A DNA stretch of 64,000 nucleotides from Mangrovibacterium marinum (GTDB lineage: Bacteria > Bacteroidota > Bacteroidia > Bacteroidales > Prolixibacteraceae), in assembly GCF_003046625.1 (NCBI RefSeq), contig NZ_QAAD01000005.1, positions 1 to 64,000 of the forward strand. The letters are read 5' to 3'. The notes beneath the pieces are model-generated. The model had not been told where the DNA came from, ran no database searches, and saw only the letters and a program-made list of their open reading frames with translations. The stretch's first letter is position 1, and each line of letters starts with the position of its first letter. The translations under genes were made by a program, and so were the position numbers. This document shows, in pieces, positions 24,231 through 32,776 of this stretch.

Positions 24231-24272
24231 AAAAGCCGGCAGCTTCACACACTGCCGGCTTTCTTGGTTTTT
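24231..24272 (+). terminator. Terminator after rplI
   Basis: AAAGCCGGCAG (24232-24242) pairs perfectly with CTGCCGGCTTT (24252-24262) around CTTCACACA, followed by TCTTGGTTTTT. The flanking A-run on the other side lets it also act for the convergent hicAB transcript. Confidence 0.9.
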
Positions 24273-24284
24273 ATCGAGGAAATC

Positions 24285-24635
24285 TTAATCAACTTCGTTT
24301 TCTTCGTGCAGTTCGCGCTTCAAAGCATGTTTTACCAGTTGGTTTAAGGTAATGCCTTTGGCGGCTGCCATTTGTGCGGCTCTTTTGTGTAGCTCGCTGC
24401 TCAGTCGTACGTTAAAACTTCCTTTATACGATTTCTCAAGCGGCTTTCCTTCGCGTTCACAATCTTCAATATGGCCATCCACCATTTCTTTAAAGGCGGC
24501 CTCCAATTCGTCAACGGTAGTCCCCTCAAAAGTTACCAGATCATTTATTCCCTCTACTTTGCCAAAGAAAACCCGGTCATCGGCGCTGTAATTCACCGTG
24601 CCCAAAAAACCTTTATATTCCAATACATTTTTCAT
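24285..24635 (-). CDS. hicB: HicB-family antitoxin
   Basis: 116 aa. The N-terminal half is a HicB_lk/partial RNase H-like fold (LEYKGFLGTVNYSADDRVFFGKVEG, TFEGTTVDELEAAFKEMVDGHIEDC) and the C-terminal half is an Arc/ribbon-helix-helix DNA-binding domain (GSFNVRLSSELHKRAAQMAAAKGITLNQLV). It neutralises HicA and represses the pair. It overlaps hicA by 4 bases (ATGA). Confidence 0.93.
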   Translation of the reverse strand: MKNVLEYKGFLGTVNYSADDRVFFGKVEGINDLVTFEGTTVDELEAAFKEMVDGHIEDCEREGKPLEKSYKGSFNVRLSSELHKRAAQMAAAKGITLNQLVKHALKRELHEENEVD

Positions 24636-24880
24636 AGTGCATTCGTATTTTTTAGTTCCTGCTCAATTAAATCGAACTGGTAGCGTTTTAAGATGTTTCC
24701 CGGATGTGGCTTGTGTAGTTTCATTTTGTGCCCGCTTTTCTCGTTGGCAAATACGACTCTCGATCCGGCTCCCTGGGCTTGCTTGTACCCAAAATAAGCC
24801 AGTAGCGTTACCAGCTCGTTATAAGTAAAATCTTTGGGTTTACTCTTAAACCGGCTAATCAGCTTCTCAATTTTGCTCAT
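24632..24880 (-). CDS. hicA: HicA-family mRNA interferase toxin
   Basis: 82 aa. HicA toxins are small dsRBD-like ribonucleases that cut mRNA without the ribosome. Marks are FTYNELVTLLAYFGYKQAQGAGSRVVF and LHKPHPGNILKRYQ with the catalytic His region. Upstream of hicB in the usual toxin-first order. A -7 box ends 5 bases before its ATG, so its mRNA is probably nearly leaderless. Confidence 0.93.
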   Translation of the reverse strand: MSKIEKLISRFKSKPKDFTYNELVTLLAYFGYKQAQGAGSRVVFANEKSGHKMKLHKPHPGNILKRYQFDLIEQELKNTNAL

Positions 24881-24884
24881 AATA

Positions 24885-24919
24885 CAAATATATAAAAATG
24901 CAACTAAAAAACAGTTGCA
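24885..24919 (-). promoter_or_regulatory. hicAB promoter with TGCAACT palindrome
   Basis: On the minus strand TATATTTG occupies 24885-24892, next to the hicA start (24880). Just upstream, TGCAACT (24899-24905) and AGTTGCA (24913-24919) form a perfect 7-base inverted repeat with a 7-base spacer. Its place in the core promoter suits an operator for HicB autorepression. Confidence 0.55.
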
Positions 24920-24927
24920 AGAATTTG

Positions 24928-25045
24928 CTATAATAGTTTTCTATTCAATTCGTCCAGCTAACTATCTGCAAAGCTTCTCAGGTAGATTGTCGTCGTTTTT
25001 TCGTTGCTATGCCCCATGCCTTCACTAATGGCGCAATTTTCAACC
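24928..25045 (-). pseudogene. Remnant of a tyrosine recombinase (integrase), C-terminal end
   Basis: Translating the minus strand gives VENCAISEGMGHSNEKTT, then TIYLRSFADS, an amber codon, then LDELNRKLL and a stop at 24928-24930. This is the end of a Bacteroidota phage-type integrase: the GH of the HxxH region and the catalytic Tyr in the TIYLRSF context are recognisable. TAG stands where such proteins usually have a sense codon such as Gln. Nothing upstream continues the domain, so it is a decayed fragment marking an old integration. Confidence 0.7.
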
Positions 25046-25660
25046 AACCAGCACCTCTTTAACCTTCGTAGAGAACCGAAAGATCGGCAATCAACCTTAT
25101 TCCCTCATTTTTGGAATAAACAACGGATGCCAGATCGTAAACGCTGTCAGGACCTGCGGACGCTGACAGGTTGTAATCAGCAAGCTTTTTAATCGCAACG
25201 TTCGCGGAGACGACGCGGAGAACTGATTGACGATCGAAGTCCGGAGGGGAGCATATTTATAGAAAAGAAACGCTCCCTACCAACATACGATGTGGGGAAA
25301 AGCGATGATGCTGCTGGCTTCGAATTTCCAATAACCAATATTCAAGATCGAATAAACATGTGGGTTTCGAGCAAATACTCATCTTGGTCAATCGTAAATG
25401 GTCAATCGTCCAATCGTAAATTGTCTCAGACTGCGATTGATCACTGAATCCTGATCCCTGTGTGTTCGGACTTATGACTAACTGTACTTACAGCCTGTTT
25501 TCTCTACTCAAGACTCTCTACTCAATACTCTCTACTCAAGACTTACGACTCACTACTCACGACTCAATACTTAACTCGTTAGTAGATGATGCCATGGAGG
25601 TACTTTTGTGAGTGTCCTTTGATAATCAAACAGAGCATGGTCTCAGGGTGTAAACAAATT
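25046..25660. other. Intergenic region with simple repeats, no gene
   Basis: No supported gene. Around 25146-25170 a CTGTCAG...CTGACAG inverted repeat occurs. From 25497 to 25580 the sequence is a string of words like CTACTCAAGACT, ACGACTCACT and CTCACGACTC, also found at 27168-27228. Small frames here have no family resemblance. Confidence 0.5.
25497..25580 (+). repeat. ACTC-word tandem repeat, copy 1
   Basis: Words of 8-12 bases (CTCTACTCAAGA, CTCTACTCAATA, CTTACGACTCACTACTCACG) repeat in imperfect tandem. The same vocabulary recurs at 27168-27228. Both flank the AbiEii-like pair and the MITE-like element. Confidence 0.6.
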
Positions 25661-25664
25661 TGTT

Positions 25665-25672
25665 TATATTTG
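25665..25672 (+). promoter_or_regulatory. -7 box (TATATTTG) of the antitoxin gene
   Basis: TATATTTG lies only 8 bases before ATG 25681, implying a very short leader, and overlaps the longer alternative start at 25660, which is therefore rejected. Confidence 0.6.
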
Positions 25673-25680
25673 TTACTGCG

Positions 25681-26196
25681 ATGGATTCAATAGATAAAAA
25701 TATTACAATTTTAAAGGGGATACATCCCGGTTTTATTCTTGACAGGGAATTAAAAAAAAGAAGATTGCCTAAAAGACGATTGGCGATGTTGATTGATGAA
25801 TATCCTCAGCTTTTGGGAGATATTACGAAGGGGAAACGTCGCATCAATCCCTCATTGTCCATAAGACTTGGTGATGCTTTGGGTATTGATGAAAGTTTCT
25901 TTGCCGTATTACAAGCGTATTACGATATTGAGCAACAAAAGAAAAAACAAACCCAGCATGAACATCCTAATTTAAAACTTTTGCGACCTGTTTTGTTTTG
26001 GGATACAGCTATAAATTCGATTAATTGGGCGAAGAGTAAAACCAGTGTTATTAGGCGCGTATTCGAACGGGGGAATGAACAGGAAATTGGAGAAATAATT
26101 CGTTTCTATGGCGAACAGGAAGTGCAGGCTATTTTGGCCCAGCTCTCAAACCGTTCGTCAATACTGGAAAATAATATACAGAAATATCTCCGATAA
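25681..26196 (+). CDS. HTH (HigA-like) antitoxin with C-terminal DUF6922-like domain
   Basis: 171 aa. The N-terminal part (IHPGFILDRELKKRRLPKRRLAML ... LSIRLGDALGIDESFF) is a HigA/VapI-like helix-turn-helix as in plasmid-maintenance antitoxins. The C-terminal part (LLRPVLFWDTAINSINWAKSKTSVIRRVFERG) resembles the small domain (named DUF6922, from memory) often encoded beside AbiEii-type nucleotidyltransferases. It stands 4 bases before the toxin-like gene. It probably neutralises and autoregulates the pair. Confidence 0.75.
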   Translation: MDSIDKNITILKGIHPGFILDRELKKRRLPKRRLAMLIDEYPQLLGDITKGKRRINPSLSIRLGDALGIDESFFAVLQAYYDIEQQKKKQTQHEHPNLKLLRPVLFWDTAINSINWAKSKTSVIRRVFERGNEQEIGEIIRFYGEQEVQAILAQLSNRSSILENNIQKYLR

Positions 26197-26200
26197 GTAG

Positions 26201-26803
26201 ATGACCAAACAATTAAAATACAATACGGTAACGCCTCAGCTACGAGAAATCTTGTCCTGGCTGATGGGGGAAAAAATCTTCGATCCTTTTCGGCTGGTTG
26301 GTGGAACCGCTTTAAGTTTGCAGTTAGGTCATCGTGAATCCGTCGATATTGACTTATTTACCGAGACTCCTTATGGCGAAATTGATTTTGATTTAATCGA
26401 TAAGCATCTAAAAGTTAGTTTTGAATATATTGATTCATTTGACGGACCTGTTGCAATGGGTAAATCCTACTTTATAGGAAATTCGGCGGATGATTGTATT
26501 AAACTTGATTTGTTTTATACCGATCCTTTTATTCGGCCTGTTTTAAATGTTGACAATATACGGTTAGCTAGTCTCGACGATATAACGGCAATGAAAATCG
26601 ACCTTGTAAGTCGCATAGCGCGGAAAAAGCACTTTTGGGATTTGCACGAATTATTAGAATATTATTCGATTCCACAAATGATTTTGTTGCATGAAGAACG
26701 CTATCCCTACTCCCATGAACCCACTGAGATACTCAAGAATTTTACCAATTTTGAAGCAGCCGATAATGATTTTGAGCCCATCTGCCTAAGGAGCAAACAT
26801 TGA
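26201..26803 (+). CDS. AbiEii/AbiGii-type nucleotidyltransferase toxin, truncated at C-terminus
   Basis: 200 aa. The DUF1814/AbiEii fold is clear: LVGGTALSLQLGHRESVDIDLF (GG and DxD catalytic motif), SLDDITAMKIDLVSRIARKKHFWDLHELL (Lys and Asp motifs). AbiEii and MenT-like toxins add nucleotides to tRNA acceptor ends and arrest growth or abort phage infection. The frame ends at TGA 26801-26803 where relatives usually continue with Trp; past it the same frame reads ELIKLDFVEAIEKLTGE and stops at 26855-26857. A TGG-to-TGA change would explain this. The catalytic core is kept, so activity is possible. Confidence 0.85.
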   Translation: MTKQLKYNTVTPQLREILSWLMGEKIFDPFRLVGGTALSLQLGHRESVDIDLFTETPYGEIDFDLIDKHLKVSFEYIDSFDGPVAMGKSYFIGNSADDCIKLDLFYTDPFIRPVLNVDNIRLASLDDITAMKIDLVSRIARKKHFWDLHELLEYYSIPQMILLHEERYPYSHEPTEILKNFTNFEAADNDFEPICLRSKH

Positions 26804-26862
26804 GAACTCATTAAGCTGGATTTTGTGGAAGCAATCGAGAAGCTAACTGGTGAATGATTGTT

Positions 26863-27100
26863 GGGGCTGTCTAAAAAGTCGATAAGAAGAAACTCAGACT
26901 TACAAATTGAAAGCTCTAGCTGATTTTACCCTCCCTGCCCACCGGCAGGCGGGCAAAGCTCTCCGTCAGCTGCCGGATGGCTTAAAGTCCCCTTCAGAGC
27001 CCGTCCCCAACTTTTCGGGAGGATTTAGGGGGCATGTAGTTTGAACGGACTTACAATTTGATAGCTTTGAAAAATCTCTTCATACTTTTTGGACAGCCTC
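26863..27100. mobile_element. MITE-like element with 17-base inverted ends
   Basis: GGGGCTGTCTAAAAAGT (26863-26879) and, reversed, GAGGCTGTCCAAAAAGT (27084-27100) are 17-base terminal inverted repeats with 15 matches, typical of transposase ends of the GGCTGTC-AAAAAGT kind. The 238-base interior has no gene; GACTTACAAATTGAAAGCT near the left end recurs almost unchanged as a direct copy near the right end. No clear target duplication is visible. It sits just after the toxin gene's ancestral end (26857). Confidence 0.6.
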
Positions 27101-27167
27101 TTTCATGATGCTGTAGCCCTGTTTTATGAATGGTTGCTGAGCCGTAGTGCTTTTGGTTATCTGGTCT

Positions 27168-27228
27168 CACTACTCAAGACTCACGACTCGCTACTCACGA
27201 CTCGCTACTCAAGACTCACTACTAAACC
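27168..27228 (+). repeat. ACTC-word tandem repeat, copy 2
   Basis: CTACTCAAGACTCACGACT, CGCTACTCACGACT and CGCTACTCAAGACT follow each other in imperfect tandem. The vocabulary is that of 25497-25580. Confidence 0.6.
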
Positions 27229-27245
27229 TCTGCTTTTCCCGCGTT

Positions 27246-27878
27246 TCAGACCAGAAAACAGCGATCCGGAGAATAGGCGGAACGATCATCGCGCCGGAAA
27301 AACAAGTGGATATGAAATTGCCTGGTAATTTGCCACTCTTTCAGGGGGAGCAATGCTTCGCCTTGCCCACGCGTTGCACCGATTTCAAAAGGCTGGCTGC
27401 CATCCCGGGAGTAATAAATCCCCATCAGGCAATCGTTCGTTTGGGCTTGCCGGCTCAGCTGGTCGGTGCTCCAGCTAATCCGAACAACAGCCGGGTCGTC
27501 GGCCGACCGCTCCACCCGAAGCTCTTGCGGCAAGGGAACCGGGCCTGTTGAAAAATGCAACAAGTCGGGATCCGTCAGTGCTCCGTAACGACCAAAAGCC
27601 GGCATATTGGCCTGGACAAACAGGTTATAGCCGGTATATTTCACGGTTGCCGACAGATTCCAGATCGGCTTAACAACATTTTCGCGGTAAGCTTTATAAA
27701 AAAAGCTCAAGGCCCGGAAACGCATCCGGTGTTCCTGTTGCTTCGGGCTCCAGCTATCGCGCTTACGCTTTTCCGGCGCCGAGCGAACAATCACTTCATC
27801 GCCATAAGGAACAAAAACCAGCGTGTTCCCCAATTTACCACTTAACTGAAATCCTCCTGCTACCTTCGCCTTTGCCAT
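27246..27878 (-). CDS. Conserved hypothetical protein, DUF6266-like
   Basis: 210 aa, no signal peptide or membrane helix. The start (MAKAKVAGGFQLSGKLGNTLVFVPYGDEVIVRSAP) matches, from memory, the N-terminal pattern GG..G..GN.V.Y...G...VR..P of the Bacteroidota DUF6266 family, whose function is unknown. The rest contains a beta-rich domain (VVRISWSTDQLS, CLMGIYYSRDG) like a fibronectin or structural-protein fold. It lies inside the accessory island, upstream of 11-base direct repeats. Confidence 0.65.
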   Translation of the reverse strand: MAKAKVAGGFQLSGKLGNTLVFVPYGDEVIVRSAPEKRKRDSWSPKQQEHRMRFRALSFFYKAYRENVVKPIWNLSATVKYTGYNLFVQANMPAFGRYGALTDPDLLHFSTGPVPLPQELRVERSADDPAVVRISWSTDQLSRQAQTNDCLMGIYYSRDGSQPFEIGATRGQGEALLPLKEWQITRQFHIHLFFRRDDRSAYSPDRCFLV

Positions 27879-27937
27879 AGAGATTCTTCTTGAAAGGTTC
27901 GTACTTCTTACTTTTTAACTCTAAGGTTTATACTAGT

Positions 27938-27995
27938 TTTCTGTATAAAAAGATACAGTAAGCATACAGAAACCATACAGAAACCTTACAGAAAC
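27938..27995. repeat. 11-base direct repeats (CATACAGAAAC x3) with inverted partner
   Basis: CATACAGAAAC occurs at 27963-27973 and 27974-27984, then CTTACAGAAAC at 27985-27995, exactly one helical turn apart; TTTCTGTAT at 27938-27946 is the inverted form. Such phasing is typical of protein-binding arrays (regulator sites or iterons). The array lies about 85 bases before the DUF6266-like start. Confidence 0.6.
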
Positions 27996-28186
27996 CCCGA
28001 ACTTTCCAAGAAGGATCTCCGAAGGAATCGTATAGGGGGAGTAGGCCTATATCACCAAGCGGATAAATAAAACAGAGAGCGGATAAAAATTCCGACGAAA
28101 GTTGCAGATTGGATCGGATGGTTCCTGAAGTCGGATGTGGTTCTCATACGGAAATAAAATATCGTAAATAAAGCCTTGTTAAACGA

Positions 28187-28194
28187 TAATTTTG
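28187..28194 (+). promoter_or_regulatory. -7 box (TAATTTTG) for the PLD/HNH/methyltransferase-HIT genes
   Basis: TAATTTTG fits TAnnTTTG, 19 bases before the ATG at 28214. No TTG is found at 19-21 bases upstream. Confidence 0.5.
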
Positions 28195-28213
28195 TAAATT
28201 TGGATTTTAACAA

Positions 28214-28555
28214 ATGCCAAATACTAAAGTGCCTATCGCTATGCTAAGAGATATTGTATATCCGCTAACCCTAGAATATAGCTCTGATGGAAATCATCTT
28301 CCAATCGAGTTTTTTATGCTGACTATACCAAATTGCAAGCATATCGACTTGAAACTTGGCTATTTTAGTTCCAACGCAATTCGCACTTTGTCGTATGGTT
28401 TTGCACAATTCATCCACAAAGGCGGTACTCTTCGGATTATTACTAACCATTTTCTTTCTTATCAGGACAAAATGCTTTTGGATGAAGCAAATTCAGATTC
28501 TGCGGTTGAAGAGGCCGAGATGAAGCGATTAACCTCGTTATTTGTATCTCGGTGA
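28214..28555 (+). CDS. PLD-like nuclease N-terminal domain, probably a truncated helicase/nuclease
   Basis: 113 aa. LPIEFFMLTIPNCKHIDLKLGYFSSNAIRTLSYGFAQFIHKGGTLRIITNHFLS is the first half of a phospholipase-D-like domain, as found at the N-terminus of large PLD-helicase proteins in bacterial defence loci. The HKD catalytic motif and any helicase part are missing: the frame ends at TGA 28553-28555, 11 bases before the next gene. Internal deletion of a longer gene is the simplest explanation. Base composition is AT-rich, as in the next two genes. Confidence 0.6.
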   Translation: MPNTKVPIAMLRDIVYPLTLEYSSDGNHLPIEFFMLTIPNCKHIDLKLGYFSSNAIRTLSYGFAQFIHKGGTLRIITNHFLSYQDKMLLDEANSDSAVEEAEMKRLTSLFVSR

Positions 28556-28566
28556 ATTACTATTGA

Positions 28567-29688
28567 ATGAAGGAATATGTATTAACCAATATTAGCAGAA
28601 TTATTGAACGGGAAAGCAAAACTTCGACTTATAAGTTTGCCTTGCTTCGTGCTGTCATTGATCTTATACAAGATAATTCTCCGTTTATTGTTGTAGAAGG
28701 GGATCGTGTCATTTTTCCTACAGGGCTGTTGGTTGAAAAATGGTTACTTTATTACTATCCAATTTTCGATTCATCTCTGAGTATTCCACAGATAGGAGGA
28801 GAAACTGAATTGGCATTTGGCAAACAGTTGCTGGAATTTACGGATAAGTATAAGTTGAGAGGTGGATTTTCTGCGTTTTATAATGATTTAAAGACTAGAG
28901 GAATACCAGTAGATTTAGAGGATGACTTTAAAGCGCTGGCAAGTAAAATCAAAGACACGGTCACGAAAATGCCCATGCGGTATATCGGTCGATCACTTAG
29001 CAAAGAGTATTATTCCATTTTTAGGGTTGAGAAACGAAGTGAAGCCAGTAAGCGGATTAATATAATAGATGCAGAATATCTGATAAATAGGCTGGGTAGC
29101 TTTTCCATCCCCCGAGAATACTATGATGCCTTTCGGGTTTTTGGTTCGTTTATCGCGGGTAAGGATTCTATCTTGTTTAAGTGGGCTGAGTTTTCGGTGC
29201 GGATGTCTTCGGATAACCTGTCGGTGAGTCAAGTATTGAATGATGTTTTGCGAAGTCCGGTCACAGAAAGGGAGGTGAACGAATCAAAAAAGATTTTCAA
29301 TAACTATCTGCAGGAGCAGGGGAATGTATATTGCGTGTGGACAGGAAGGAAACTTAGGAAGTATGATCTTGACCACTTGATTCCATTTTCAGTGTGGAAA
29401 AATAACGACTTGTGGAATCTACTTCCAAGTGATTCAATTACAAATAGTCGGAAGAGAGACAAAATTCCGTCTGCTGCACTAATCGAATCGCAAAAAGAAC
29501 TGATCATCCAGTATTGGGATATACTGAATCAGTTTCAACATGAACGTTTCAGAAAGGAGATCGGTGTCACATTGCTTGGTGACACTAATTTTGATTCTTG
29601 GGAAACAACTGCCATTACTCAGCTAAAAAGTACGTGTGATTATCTAATTTCTCAACGCGGATTCGACCAATGGGACGGACGAAATTAA
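28567..29688 (+). CDS. HNH endonuclease domain protein
   Basis: 373 aa. The N-terminal 240 residues are unfamiliar and helix-rich. The C-terminal region CVWTGRKLRKYDLDHLIPFSVWKNNDLWNLLPSDSITNSRKRDKIPS is an HNH nuclease: DH dyad, NDLWNLLP with the conserved Asn, and the later Asn/Lys. Proteins of this shape occur as putative restriction nucleases. It follows the PLD fragment by 11 bases and overlaps the methyltransferase-HIT gene by 19, so the genes are co-translated. Likely role: DNA cleavage in a defence system (inference). Confidence 0.8.
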   Translation: MKEYVLTNISRIIERESKTSTYKFALLRAVIDLIQDNSPFIVVEGDRVIFPTGLLVEKWLLYYYPIFDSSLSIPQIGGETELAFGKQLLEFTDKYKLRGGFSAFYNDLKTRGIPVDLEDDFKALASKIKDTVTKMPMRYIGRSLSKEYYSIFRVEKRSEASKRINIIDAEYLINRLGSFSIPREYYDAFRVFGSFIAGKDSILFKWAEFSVRMSSDNLSVSQVLNDVLRSPVTEREVNESKKIFNNYLQEQGNVYCVWTGRKLRKYDLDHLIPFSVWKNNDLWNLLPSDSITNSRKRDKIPSAALIESQKELIIQYWDILNQFQHERFRKEIGVTLLGDTNFDSWETTAITQLKSTCDYLISQRGFDQWDGRN

Positions 29689-30545
29689 ATCAATATCATT
29701 ATCTCACTGCTAAAGAGCGCGATCGTCTTTCGTTTCCTGCTCGACTGGCCATAGAGCGTGGCTGGCTCAAAGGAGAAATTCTCGATTTTGGGTGCGGCTT
29801 TGGATCTGATGTTCAATTGCTATCTGAATTGGGCATGAATGTGAAAGGATATGATGTCCACTATTTCCCGGAGTATCCTCAAAAGAAGTTCGATACAATA
29901 CTTTGTTTCTATGTATTGAACGTGTTATTGCCAGAGGAGCAAGCAAAAGTCTTGGTCGAGATCTCTCGACTGTTGAGGCCTACTGGGAAAGCTTATTTCG
30001 CAGTACGTCGTGATCTTCAGTTTGAAGGATACCGTACTCACAAATTACATAAAAAGAAAACCTATCAGTGTAATGTCAAGCTTCCGTTCCGGTCTGTCTT
30101 CGTCAACGGGAATTGTGAAATTTACGAGTATCAGCATTTCAACCGTATTGAAAAAACGATTAATATCAGTTGCCCATTTTGTAATTCAACCCCGGAGCAA
30201 GCTTTTATTGCAGAAACGGCTACTGCATTTGCTATTTTTGATAAATTTCCGGTCAATCCCGGCCATGCTTTAATTATTCCTAAACGTCATTGTGCTGACT
30301 ATTTTGAATTAAGCATAAAAGAACAACAGGCTTGTTGGTTTTTGCTTAATCATGTTAAGTGCATTATAGCGAGTGAATTTAATCCTAATGGTTTCAACGT
30401 GGGAGTAAATATTAATCAGGCCGGGGGGCAAACGATTCCTCATGTTCACATTCATTTAATTCCCCGATATGCTGGTGATATTGAAAATCCAACTGGAGGT
30501 GTTCGCGGAGTGATTCCAGAGAAGCGGGATTATACTATAGATTGA
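29670..30545 (+). CDS. SAM-dependent methyltransferase fused to HIT-family hydrolase
   Basis: 291 aa. Residues about 1-140 are a class I methyltransferase: ILDFGCGFGSDVQLL (motif I), GYDVHYFPEYP, and FDTILCFYVLNVLLPEEQ ... LLRPTGKAYFAVRRD. The N-terminal style resembles methyltransferases associated with DNA phosphorothioation loci (from memory). Residues about 165-291 are a HIT domain: CPFCN..P, FPVNPGHALIIPKRH, and the catalytic HVHIHLIPRY. HIT enzymes hydrolyse or transfer nucleotide adducts such as AMP from phosphoramidates. It is third in the AT-rich trio, overlapping the HNH gene by 19 bases. The joint reaction is unknown. Confidence 0.85.
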   Translation: MGRTKLNQYHYLTAKERDRLSFPARLAIERGWLKGEILDFGCGFGSDVQLLSELGMNVKGYDVHYFPEYPQKKFDTILCFYVLNVLLPEEQAKVLVEISRLLRPTGKAYFAVRRDLQFEGYRTHKLHKKKTYQCNVKLPFRSVFVNGNCEIYEYQHFNRIEKTINISCPFCNSTPEQAFIAETATAFAIFDKFPVNPGHALIIPKRHCADYFELSIKEQQACWFLLNHVKCIIASEFNPNGFNVGVNINQAGGQTIPHVHIHLIPRYAGDIENPTGGVRGVIPEKRDYTID

Positions 30546-31130
30546 ATAAAACCCTTTTTAAGAGAACAAAAGTATCATGTCCACTGAATCGAAGCTTACT
30601 CATAATGAGCAAAAATAAGGAAAGTAAATTCAATAACTAAATGTTCCTTTTTCAAATTATTTGCAATGATTCAAGTTCTTTATTTTGAGTTGAATAAAGA
30701 GCTCTTTTTTTGTGAATTATTCCTTTGCTTGTAGACGGAGGTGCTGCAAAGTGAGGGGTTCAGGGCTACCAACAGGGTTATTCTCATCACGAATTAAATC
30801 GTATTGATAAGAAAAAGAGGAAAGCAAATCAATCACTTTCCTCTACAGGGGTGCGAAAGCCATCATCAAATGACCAATCCCACCTTTTTATACTGGATTT
30901 GCCAGTTTCAATTGATGTCGGATGATAAAATTAATCGTTTTTATTGGGAAATCACTCCTTTATATCAGTTAGTTGCTGGCAGTTATCCCGAGCAATGGGC
31001 GGGAACACTGGTTTGTGGTTTAAAAAGGCACCAAACTGGCACCGGAAATTACTGTCGATGCCTACTGGATCTGCTACATTGGCGAGGACACAAAGTTAAG
31101 CCCCTATCTCTAGAGTATGAAAGAGAGAAC
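30546..31130. other. Intergenic, decayed sequence without a supported gene
   Basis: AT-rich sequence after the trio, then a longer open frame from 30804 whose first 109 codons resemble no family and have unusual composition; it is open mainly by chance until it meets the IS3 remnant at 31131. A second frame around 31045-31115 reads APEITVDAYWICYIGEDTK and could be a scrap of another gene. No promoter or RNA was recognised. Confidence 0.4.
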
Positions 31131-31256
31131 ATGAAAGAGAAAACACGAAAGAAGTGCGACAAAGAGTTTAAAATGATGGTTGTCAATCTCTGTCTAAGTG
31201 GCAGGAGATCTCTGGATGTAGGCAACGAACTTGGTTTAGATCGAAGCTTGGTTTAA
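31131..31256 (+). pseudogene. Truncated IS3-family OrfA-like transposase fragment
   Basis: 41 codons MKEKTRKKCDKEFK ... VVNLCLSGRRSLDVGNELGLDRSLV match the helix-turn-helix start of an IS3-type OrfA (charged start, EFK..VV.LCLSG, then V..ELG.DRS.V). The frame stops just where the next helix (usually SRWR) should come. No OrfB is present, so the element is dead. Confidence 0.65.
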
Positions 31257-31440
31257 CGCCGGGTTCGGGATCCGTTTCCGGGCTTGTTTTATCACTGGCA
31301 AGTCGGCATAACTGGATGAAACCTTTCGGTTTGCAAAACCGGAGCCGGATGACGGGAGACTGTCAACGCTTGTCCCGATTAGTCGGGGGGAGGTGCTGTG
31401 AGGAGCTTAGGGCGAAACTCCCTTTGTCGGCTCGACCAAG
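31257..31440 (+). mobile_element. Group II intron remnant
   Basis: GGAGCCGGATGAC followed by GGGAGACTGTC (31341-31364), then GTGCTGTGAGGAGC, GGGCGAAACTCCC and GGCTCGACC (ending about 31438), reproduces the order of conserved words in the RNA part just before the reverse transcriptase gene of bacterial group II introns. No reverse transcriptase follows, so this is a fragment. It abuts the truncated IS3 piece. The match is from memory of intron sequences. Confidence 0.5.
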
Positions 31441-31735
31441 AAAACGGCCGTATTGGCGGTTGGGCGTTAACTTCCGGTTTTAAAGCGGAGGGTTTCGAAA
31501 GGTAAGCGCAAATTCCAGTCCCGTCGGGACGGCTGGGCGTAGAGATACAGGAGCTCCGTAGGAGCGCAACTGCCCCCAACAGCCTCGTATGTGCCGCTCC
31601 TCCGGAGCTCGGATTTCTGCTTATGGCGATTTTGCTACAACGATTTCGCTACTCCGGAGCTGGAGGAGTGCTGGTTTTTTTCGCGAAGTCGCTGGGTTTG
31701 TTAACTTGCATTGTCAAACTGCTAAAAAAATAACG
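31441..31735. other. Spacer with GGAGCTCC-type palindromic words
   Basis: Short palindromic words such as GGAGCTCCGTAGGAGC, CTCCTCCGGAGCT and CTCCGGAGCTGGAGGAG occur between 31549 and 31670, as often seen in Bacteroidota intergenic repeats. The frame of the following oxidoreductase is open back to 31589 through them, but this part does not look coding. Confidence 0.4.
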
Positions 31736-32776
31736 ATGAAGATTCAAACGGCGATAGCTTCTTATGGTATGTCGGGCATGGTGTTTCACGGCCCTTCGCT
31801 GAAGGCAAATCCTGATTTCGAAGTCAGATCGATTTTGGAACGATCGAAGAACCGCTCGGCCGCACTTTTCTCCGAGGCCACCATTGTGCGTAACTATGCT
31901 GCTTTGCTGGATGATCCCCGGATTAAGCTGGTGGTGGTTAATACGCCCGATTATTTGCATTACGAGATGTGCAAACAAGCTTTGCTGGCCGGAAAGCATG
32001 TTGTTGTTGAGAAGCCATTCACCCAAACGGTGGAGCAGGCCAACGAGCTCATTGCCCTGGCCAACGAAAAAGGACTGGTGCTAACCGTTTACCAGAACCG
32101 GCGTTGGGACGGCGATTTCCTGACCGTGAAAAAAATCATAACCGAAGGCCTTTTAGGACGTTTGGTGGAGTTTGAGTCGCACTTCGATCGCTACCGCAAT
32201 TTCATTCAAGCCGATACCTGGAAGGAAGAAGGCATTGATCGGGTAGGCGTGTTGTACAATTTAGGTTCGCATGCGGTTGATCAGGCGCTGAATTTATTTG
32301 GTATGCCCGGGGCGGTAACGGCTCATCTGGCCACTTTGCGTACCGGAGGACGTGTTCCGGATTATTACGATATTCGCTTGCAGTACGACGGCTTTGCTGC
32401 GCTGCTGAAAAGCTCGTACCTGGTGCGTGAGCCGGGCCCTCGTTACTCGCTGCATGGCACCCTGGGCTCGTATCAGAAGTGGGGCATCGATCCGCAGGAG
32501 GAAGCCCTGAAAGCCGGACAACTACCCGGTGGATCAGGCTGGGGCGAAGAGCCGGAAAGTGCCTGGGGAATGCTGCATACCGAAAAGGACGGGCAGCCAA
32601 TACGCCAAAAGATGGAAACCATTCGGGGTAACTATGCGCTGTTCTACGAAAATGTGTACGGCGCAATTACAAATGGCGAAAGCTTGCTGGTGAAGCCCGA
32701 GGAAAGCCGCGACTGTTTGCGTGTTCTGGAGGCCTGTTTGCTGAGCGATCAGGAACAGCGTACTATTCGTCTGTAA
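31736..32776 (+). CDS. Gfo/Idh/MocA-family NAD(P)-dependent oxidoreductase
   Basis: 346 aa from ATG 31736. The Rossmann part begins IQTAIASYGMSG and contains VVVNTPDYLHYEMCKQALLAGKHVVVEKPFTQTVEQA, the family's EKP motif. The C-terminal part holds YNLGSHAVDQALNLFG with the catalytic region (H of GSHAVD). Such enzymes oxidise or reduce sugars, inositols or bile pigments; the substrate is unknown. The glycine motif near the N-terminus (ASYGMSG) differs from the common GxGxxG. It overlaps the convergent DUF6807 gene by 14 bases. Confidence 0.9.
   Translation: MKIQTAIASYGMSGMVFHGPSLKANPDFEVRSILERSKNRSAALFSEATIVRNYAALLDDPRIKLVVVNTPDYLHYEMCKQALLAGKHVVVEKPFTQTVEQANELIALANEKGLVLTVYQNRRWDGDFLTVKKIITEGLLGRLVEFESHFDRYRNFIQADTWKEEGIDRVGVLYNLGSHAVDQALNLFGMPGAVTAHLATLRTGGRVPDYYDIRLQYDGFAALLKSSYLVREPGPRYSLHGTLGSYQKWGIDPQEEALKAGQLPGGSGWGEEPESAWGMLHTEKDGQPIRQKMETIRGNYALFYENVYGAITNGESLLVKPEESRDCLRVLEACLLSDQEQRTIRL

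Follow-up and report, generated by a model that had tools for sequence, protein, structure and literature searches.

Among the closest described relatives of the locus analysed here are the SBD-HNH restriction enzymes of phosphorothioated (PT) DNA (ScoMcrA-like, NF045808), which likewise combine an N-terminal recognition domain with a C-terminal HNH domain and one member of which (in locus L075) directly partners a methyltransferase-HIT fusion protein (MT-HIT) of the kind described below. In contrast with their SBD and HNH_2 domains, the HNH protein of our locus has an unrelated helical domain with a TYK motif (TYK domain) and an HNH_4 domain; the latter shares the HNH core of Cas9-type nucleases, but without RuvC and with no evidence of an RNA guide. 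PbeABCD/CxC ABC-ATPase systems are co-located with the HNH/MT-HIT pair in a few islands and have left a PbeA remnant at our locus, but the pair has neither an ABC ATPase nor a DndE partner and is independent of them. MT-HIT has its N-terminal methyltransferase domain in common with TIGR04096 (dnd_rel_methyl) proteins, whereas its C-terminal part is replaced by a HIT domain. This domain has the fold and triad of bacterial HIT proteins, Ap4A phosphorylase and Fhit, from which MT-HIT differs by a C-terminal GGVR signature, the methyltransferase fusion, and the linkage to HNH. A HIT protein, ThsC, is likewise an accessory in the Thoeris defence locus, but our pair has no TIR gene and its HIT domain is tied to HNH nucleases. 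ThsC was the only HIT protein in defence that we found in the open-licence literature (PMC8565338), and neither this literature nor the PADLOC and NCBIfam models include an HNH-HIT or MT-HIT system. These comparisons point to a restriction-like nuclease module with an unusual constant partner, apparently undescribed.

The window analysed, a stretch of 64,000 nucleotides of Mangrovibacterium marinum (host genome of 4.6 Mb in 61 contigs), contains three consecutive ORFs (113, 373, and 291 aa, Table 1) separated by a gap of 11 bases and then overlapping by 19 bases, with a GC content of 0.37–0.41 against mostly 0.45–0.50 in the surroundings, in line with a sequence-only reading of this DNA that described a packed AT-rich trio. 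They belong to an island of ~7.4 kb for which the same-genus genomes G003 and G001 have an empty site: their rplI and oxidoreductase sides are only ~100–114 bp apart, and the backbone match to them ends at window positions ~24265–24275 and starts again at 31742. Besides the trio, the island contains a HicBA pair and an HTH/DUF6922-AbiEii pair (the two toxin–antitoxin pairs that had been reported beside the trio), a lone hypothetical gene, and an apparent transposase fragment. The latter, a truncated ORF at the right end (31130–31256), resembles the beginning of a transposase OrfA. The hypothetical gene (27246–27878, reverse strand) is GC-rich within the AT-rich island and has no Pfam match; the genome holds a second copy, 42% identical, plus a broken one. 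Upstream of the trio there are two Bacteroidota-type TAnnTTTG elements (at 28187 and 28195) and a scan found no sigma-70-like site, the sigma-70 consensus being uninformative for Bacteroidota. The AbiEii region is flanked by repeats of 14-nt period (CTACTCAAGACTCAC..., at 25481–25585 and 27147–27244) that belong to a dispersed family, as their pattern occurs at 16 genome sites and at none for the reversed control. Inverted and direct repeats (TACAGAAACC units, 27919–27991) lie a short way 5' of the first ORF of the trio.

Table 1. Position of the island and of its main genes, domains, and motifs in the window.
Feature	Positions	Strand	Basis
Accessory island, between rplI and a Gfo/Idh-type oxidoreductase gene	24276–31741	.	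Backbone breaks and low GC
HicBA toxin–antitoxin pair	24285–24880	-	Domain scan
HTH/DUF6922 regulator and AbiEii	25660–26803		Domain scan
pbeA remnant (N-terminal ~100 of ~720 aa)	28214–28555	+	PADLOC PbeA profile; alignment to PbeA of L009 and L030
HNH endonuclease type A: helical N-terminal domain with TYK motif, C-terminal HNH_4	28567–29688	+	
TYK motif, KTSTYKFALLRAVIDLIQ	28618–28671	+	Alignments of type A, type B, and other HNH proteins
HNH core, DH...LWNL...N..KR	29356–29469	+	Catalytic residues invariant
Methyltransferase-HIT fusion, constant partner	29670–30545	+	Pfam, NCBIfam
Class I SAM-dependent methyltransferase domain, motif I LDFGCGFGSD	29703–30134	+	Domain scan, alignment, sequence read
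HIT domain: CxxC, HVHIH triad (30441–30455), C-terminal GDxxNPxGGVRxVIP signature	30171–30533	+	

The 113-aa ORF matches the PADLOC profile of the PLD-helicase PbeA (E 5e-24; identity of PbeA taken from PMC10853773 and PMC6459918) along profile residues 2–86 only and is the sole PbeA match in the host genome. Its alignment to PbeA from loci L009 and L030 ends ahead of the region of the HKD catalytic motif and of the helicase, which confirms the loss of the catalytic and helicase parts suspected before. The island has no PbeC-sized ORF, and neither the HNH protein nor MT-HIT matches PbeB–D. Elsewhere, intact PbeA is found near the pair in 3 of 37 wide loci (L009, L027, and L030), a lower bound as many of these loci end at contig ends, and an HKD-DUF3427 helicase in L015. 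The earlier proposal to look for homologous loci was answered in two ways: the pair is conserved in other genomes, and a full-length PLD-helicase does not always accompany it. With most pairs devoid of PbeA, we rule out the PLD-helicase as a member of the system, contrary to the initial reading, and the trio is an HNH/MT-HIT pair plus decayed pbeA debris from a neighbour. Since pairs normally occur without PbeA, the one in the window is probably intact, and not disabled as had been considered possible.

The HNH protein, 47–62% identical over its full length to 13 relatives, has an HNH_4 domain above the Pfam cut-off (E 1.2e-6), and residues D269, H270, N284, and N293 are invariant across the 14 proteins. 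The nearest solved relatives of this core are the HNH domains of Cas9, related along a stretch of only ~95 residues. For the N-terminal domain we found no solved relative, a PDB fold search with the AlphaFold model (pLDDT 72) gave no meaningful match, and SBD matches were limited to the partner HNH proteins of L075 and L081; we therefore infer its role in target recognition from the exchange pattern described below. The TYK motif is common to otherwise unrelated N-terminal domains, namely those of type A and type B proteins, which share only this short motif and the HNH core, and those of HNH proteins encoded in Pseudomonadota and Persicobacter plasmids.

MT-HIT (AlphaFold model with pLDDT 80) is 56–73% identical to 33 relatives and contains Methyltransf_23/11 and HIT (E 4.5e-19) domains. 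The methyltransferase domain has an invariant VRRD...GxR...TYQ...NENCEIYEY segment and, both in sequence and in alignment, lacks the PPY or PC motif of DNA methylases that would be found in the partner of a Type II restriction enzyme. Its likeness to methyltransferases of phosphorothioation loci, noted before, holds for the N-terminal domain of TIGR04096 (56.9 bits, positions 7–82 of 478), well below the cut-off of 150. No TIGR04096 protein scored above this cut-off in 392 genomes of the phylum, nor did the host genome have a match to a dndC-type sulfurtransferase, so we reject a phosphorothioation link and retain a mere shared methyltransferase domain. In the HIT domain the triad (H258, H260, and H262) is invariant in 34 sequences and the zinc cysteines are kept. 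Its fold matches 3imi (E 9.7e-9), and by both sequence and fold it is closest to bacterial HIT proteins, Fhit, and Ap4A phosphorylase, with aprataxin marginal. It matches ThsC only weakly, and the scanned island genes have no TIR or ThsA match that would indicate a type II Thoeris. A viral fold search with MT-HIT retrieved nothing but low-specificity matches to either the methyltransferase or the HIT domain, and a scan of IMG/VR only relatives of the methyltransferase domain without HIT, among them solo domains of the MT-HIT kind on phage contigs (L121–L128). The Streptomyces phage phiSASD1 encodes a GGVR-type HIT protein after a PAPS-reductase-like gene (L145, 2560–3887), and in the Chroococcidiopsis plasmid pB (L135) a related solo methyltransferase precedes a GGVR-type HIT gene.

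The association of the two proteins extends well beyond this genome. A genome scan with MT-HIT yielded 38 loci, 37 of them with an HNH gene directly upstream (the exception, L039, is a HIT fragment), which is far from chance. Whole-genome searches extended this first scan to 59 full-length MT-HIT loci (55 different MT-HIT sequences), all with a same-strand HNH gene directly upstream, of TYK type in 58 and SBD-HNH in one, mostly overlapping by 1–49 bases; the HNH/MT-HIT coupling proposed in the sequence-only reading is thus genuine. The MT-HIT relatives from the genome scan are nearly all from Bacteroidota, where their occurrence is patchy: we found the full-length fusion in 6 of 61 relatives (window genome included) and in none of three other same-genus genomes, and the HNH and MT-HIT pair in 17 of 392 genomes of the phylum, as would be expected for mobile accessory genes. 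The pairs have neighbours such as Wadjet JetA/B/C (following the pair in L018 and L020), PbeACD, YhcG (PDC-S02), AbiE, HKD-DUF3427 helicase, and SF1/SF2 helicases. The defence-like setting initially proposed is thereby supported, the pair being conserved across genomes and located in defence islands instead of being restricted to nucleotide metabolism contexts.

What the earlier reading had missed is the mobility of the HNH half. On the MT-HIT tree, which was built quickly and includes some long branches, at least 15 changes of HNH type are required (mean of 19 when shuffled), 5–6 of them forced by well-supported branches. The MT-HIT protein nearest to that of the window (L002, 73% identity) is coupled to a type B HNH protein. 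Two Algoriphagus loci (L010 and L022) share 94% identity along the 8.85 kb that precede the HNH gene and 91% along the 10.8 kb that follow it, but the HNH genes themselves are unrelated (26% identity) and the breaks fall at their edges. Likewise, L073 and L075 have 90%-identical MT-HIT proteins, with a TYK-HNH protein in the former and, in the latter, an SBD-HNH protein of PT-DNA-binding type that matches NF045808 (phosphorothioated-DNA-binding restriction endonuclease) below the family cut-off. These sequences show that the HNH half is exchanged wholesale while the partner is kept, a pattern that corresponds to the behaviour of recognition modules. As the partner remains constant through these swaps, its role should be generic and not tied to one target sequence, unless the HNH protein itself carries the specificity for both; MT-HIT is therefore probably a generic partner and not a sequence-specific modification enzyme.

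The methyltransferase half is absent from some pairs. HIT-only proteins with the GDxxNPxGGVR signature occur by TYK-HNH genes (L046, L084, L086, L088, and L089) and by SBD-HNH genes near Dcm-type methylase genes (L081 and L085, the second also with Vsr), the N-terminal domain of the L081 HNH protein matching the solved sulfur-binding domain SBDHga1 (E 2.6e-9). In L090 HNH and HIT form one polypeptide. Within the phylum sample, 6 of 11 interpretable HIT-only relatives adjoin an HNH gene and one is fused, compared with none of 20 control housekeeping HIT loci examined with the same profiles. No HNH gene lies beside the HIT relatives L080, L082, L083, and L091, and such cases count against the cassette reading favoured below. 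TYK-HNH and HIT pairs are carried, in either order, by plasmids of Pseudomonadota and Bacteroidota: Hymenobacter canadensis and Persicobacter have the gene order of the window, and in the Betaproteobacteria Polaromonas and Aromatoleum a TYK-HNH gene follows the HIT gene. This distribution, also overlooked before, makes HNH plus HIT the core and the methyltransferase an add-on. TYK-HNH domains also occur beside a MazG-like gene or fused behind another methyltransferase (L104–L109; Azospirillum, Roseomonas, and Pseudoalteromonas plasmids). Single MT-TYK-HNH proteins of ~555–600 aa (L104–L109, L129, L130, and L137, in Bacteroidota and Pseudomonadota) often have no HIT neighbour and are annotated merely as methyltransferases.

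On balance, we favour the view that HNH and MT-HIT act together against invaders as a mobile, restriction-like cassette of two genes, in which HNH recognition is interchangeable and the nucleotidyl-processing partner stays constant. An anti-phage role of the pair is quite probable, and it is almost as likely that the HNH protein is the target-recognising cutter, its N-terminal part recognising a foreign DNA target that its C-terminal domain would cleave. That MT-HIT is a generic nucleotidyl processor has about an even chance of being right. Working with unrelated HNH recognition parts, it would act on something common to them all, most likely a nucleotidyl-phosphate compound that arises when DNA is cleaved and repaired, such as a dinucleoside polyphosphate or the AMP that ligases place on 5' ends. 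The HIT domain would take the nucleotide off or pass it on, and the same product would be modified by the methyltransferase domain, with capping in the case of a DNA end. The DNA-end version, in which AMP added by ligases is stripped, would fit the independence from specificity and the fixed HIT partner and is one of several that the sequences accommodate; its DNA-5'-AMP form is weakened in that aprataxin is more distant from the HIT domain than Fhit/Ap4A-type and bacterial HIT proteins are, and we regard this specific model as unlikely. Equally speculative is a bolder possibility, in which HNH and HIT, with or without methyltransferase, would be an undescribed form of immunity where a single nucleotidyl-processing enzyme, common to interchangeable DNA-targeting HNH modules, acts on cut ends or ligase intermediates to make cleavage irreparable, turning aprataxin-like chemistry into a weapon.

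The HIT protein could instead be the off-switch of a suicide nuclease, destroying a nucleotide signal that activates HNH, as PADLOC authors proposed for ThsC (PMC8565338). HIT proteins do hydrolyse nucleotide conjugates and some pairs have MazG or NUDIX genes in their vicinity, but the neighbour families include no recurrent signal-making enzyme beside the pair and a single HIT partner would have to serve unrelated HNH sensors, which makes this scenario improbable. Restriction-modification, with the methyltransferase domain marking host DNA that HNH then spares, would account for the adjacency or fusion of nuclease and methyltransferase, including the MT-TYK-HNH proteins of Alphaproteobacteria and Pseudoalteromonas plasmids, and for the Dcm-type methylase genes adjoining two SBD-HNH and HIT loci. 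We nevertheless hold it to be decidedly improbable given the missing PPY and PC motifs, the 90–94%-identical MT-HIT proteins serving HNH proteins with unrelated recognition parts, the HIT-only pairs entirely devoid of methyltransferase, and the lack of a recurrent DNA methylase among 89 neighbour genes. Overlapping genes that always occur together, in an island holding two toxin–antitoxin pairs, could also suggest that MT-HIT shields the cell from the HNH protein; the reversed order in Betaproteobacteria and the association of one MT-HIT type with barely similar HNH_4 and HNH_2 partners, difficult for a binding inhibitor, leave little room for this idea. Finally, the locus might be a broken PbeABCD/phosphorothioation system with visible parts, the PbeA remnant and the PbeA/PbeC genes near the pairs of L009, L027, and L030 being in its favour. 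The independence of the pair, as deduced from its gene content elsewhere, largely refutes this reading, which the absence of DndC and of PbeB–D matches renders extremely improbable.

The natural swap pairs L010/L022 and L073/L075 make the role of the constant partner directly testable. If the cassette reading is correct, a widespread undescribed nuclease and HIT module would be added to bacterial immunity, and it would help to explain the presence of HIT and TIGR04096-type methyltransferase genes in defence islands.
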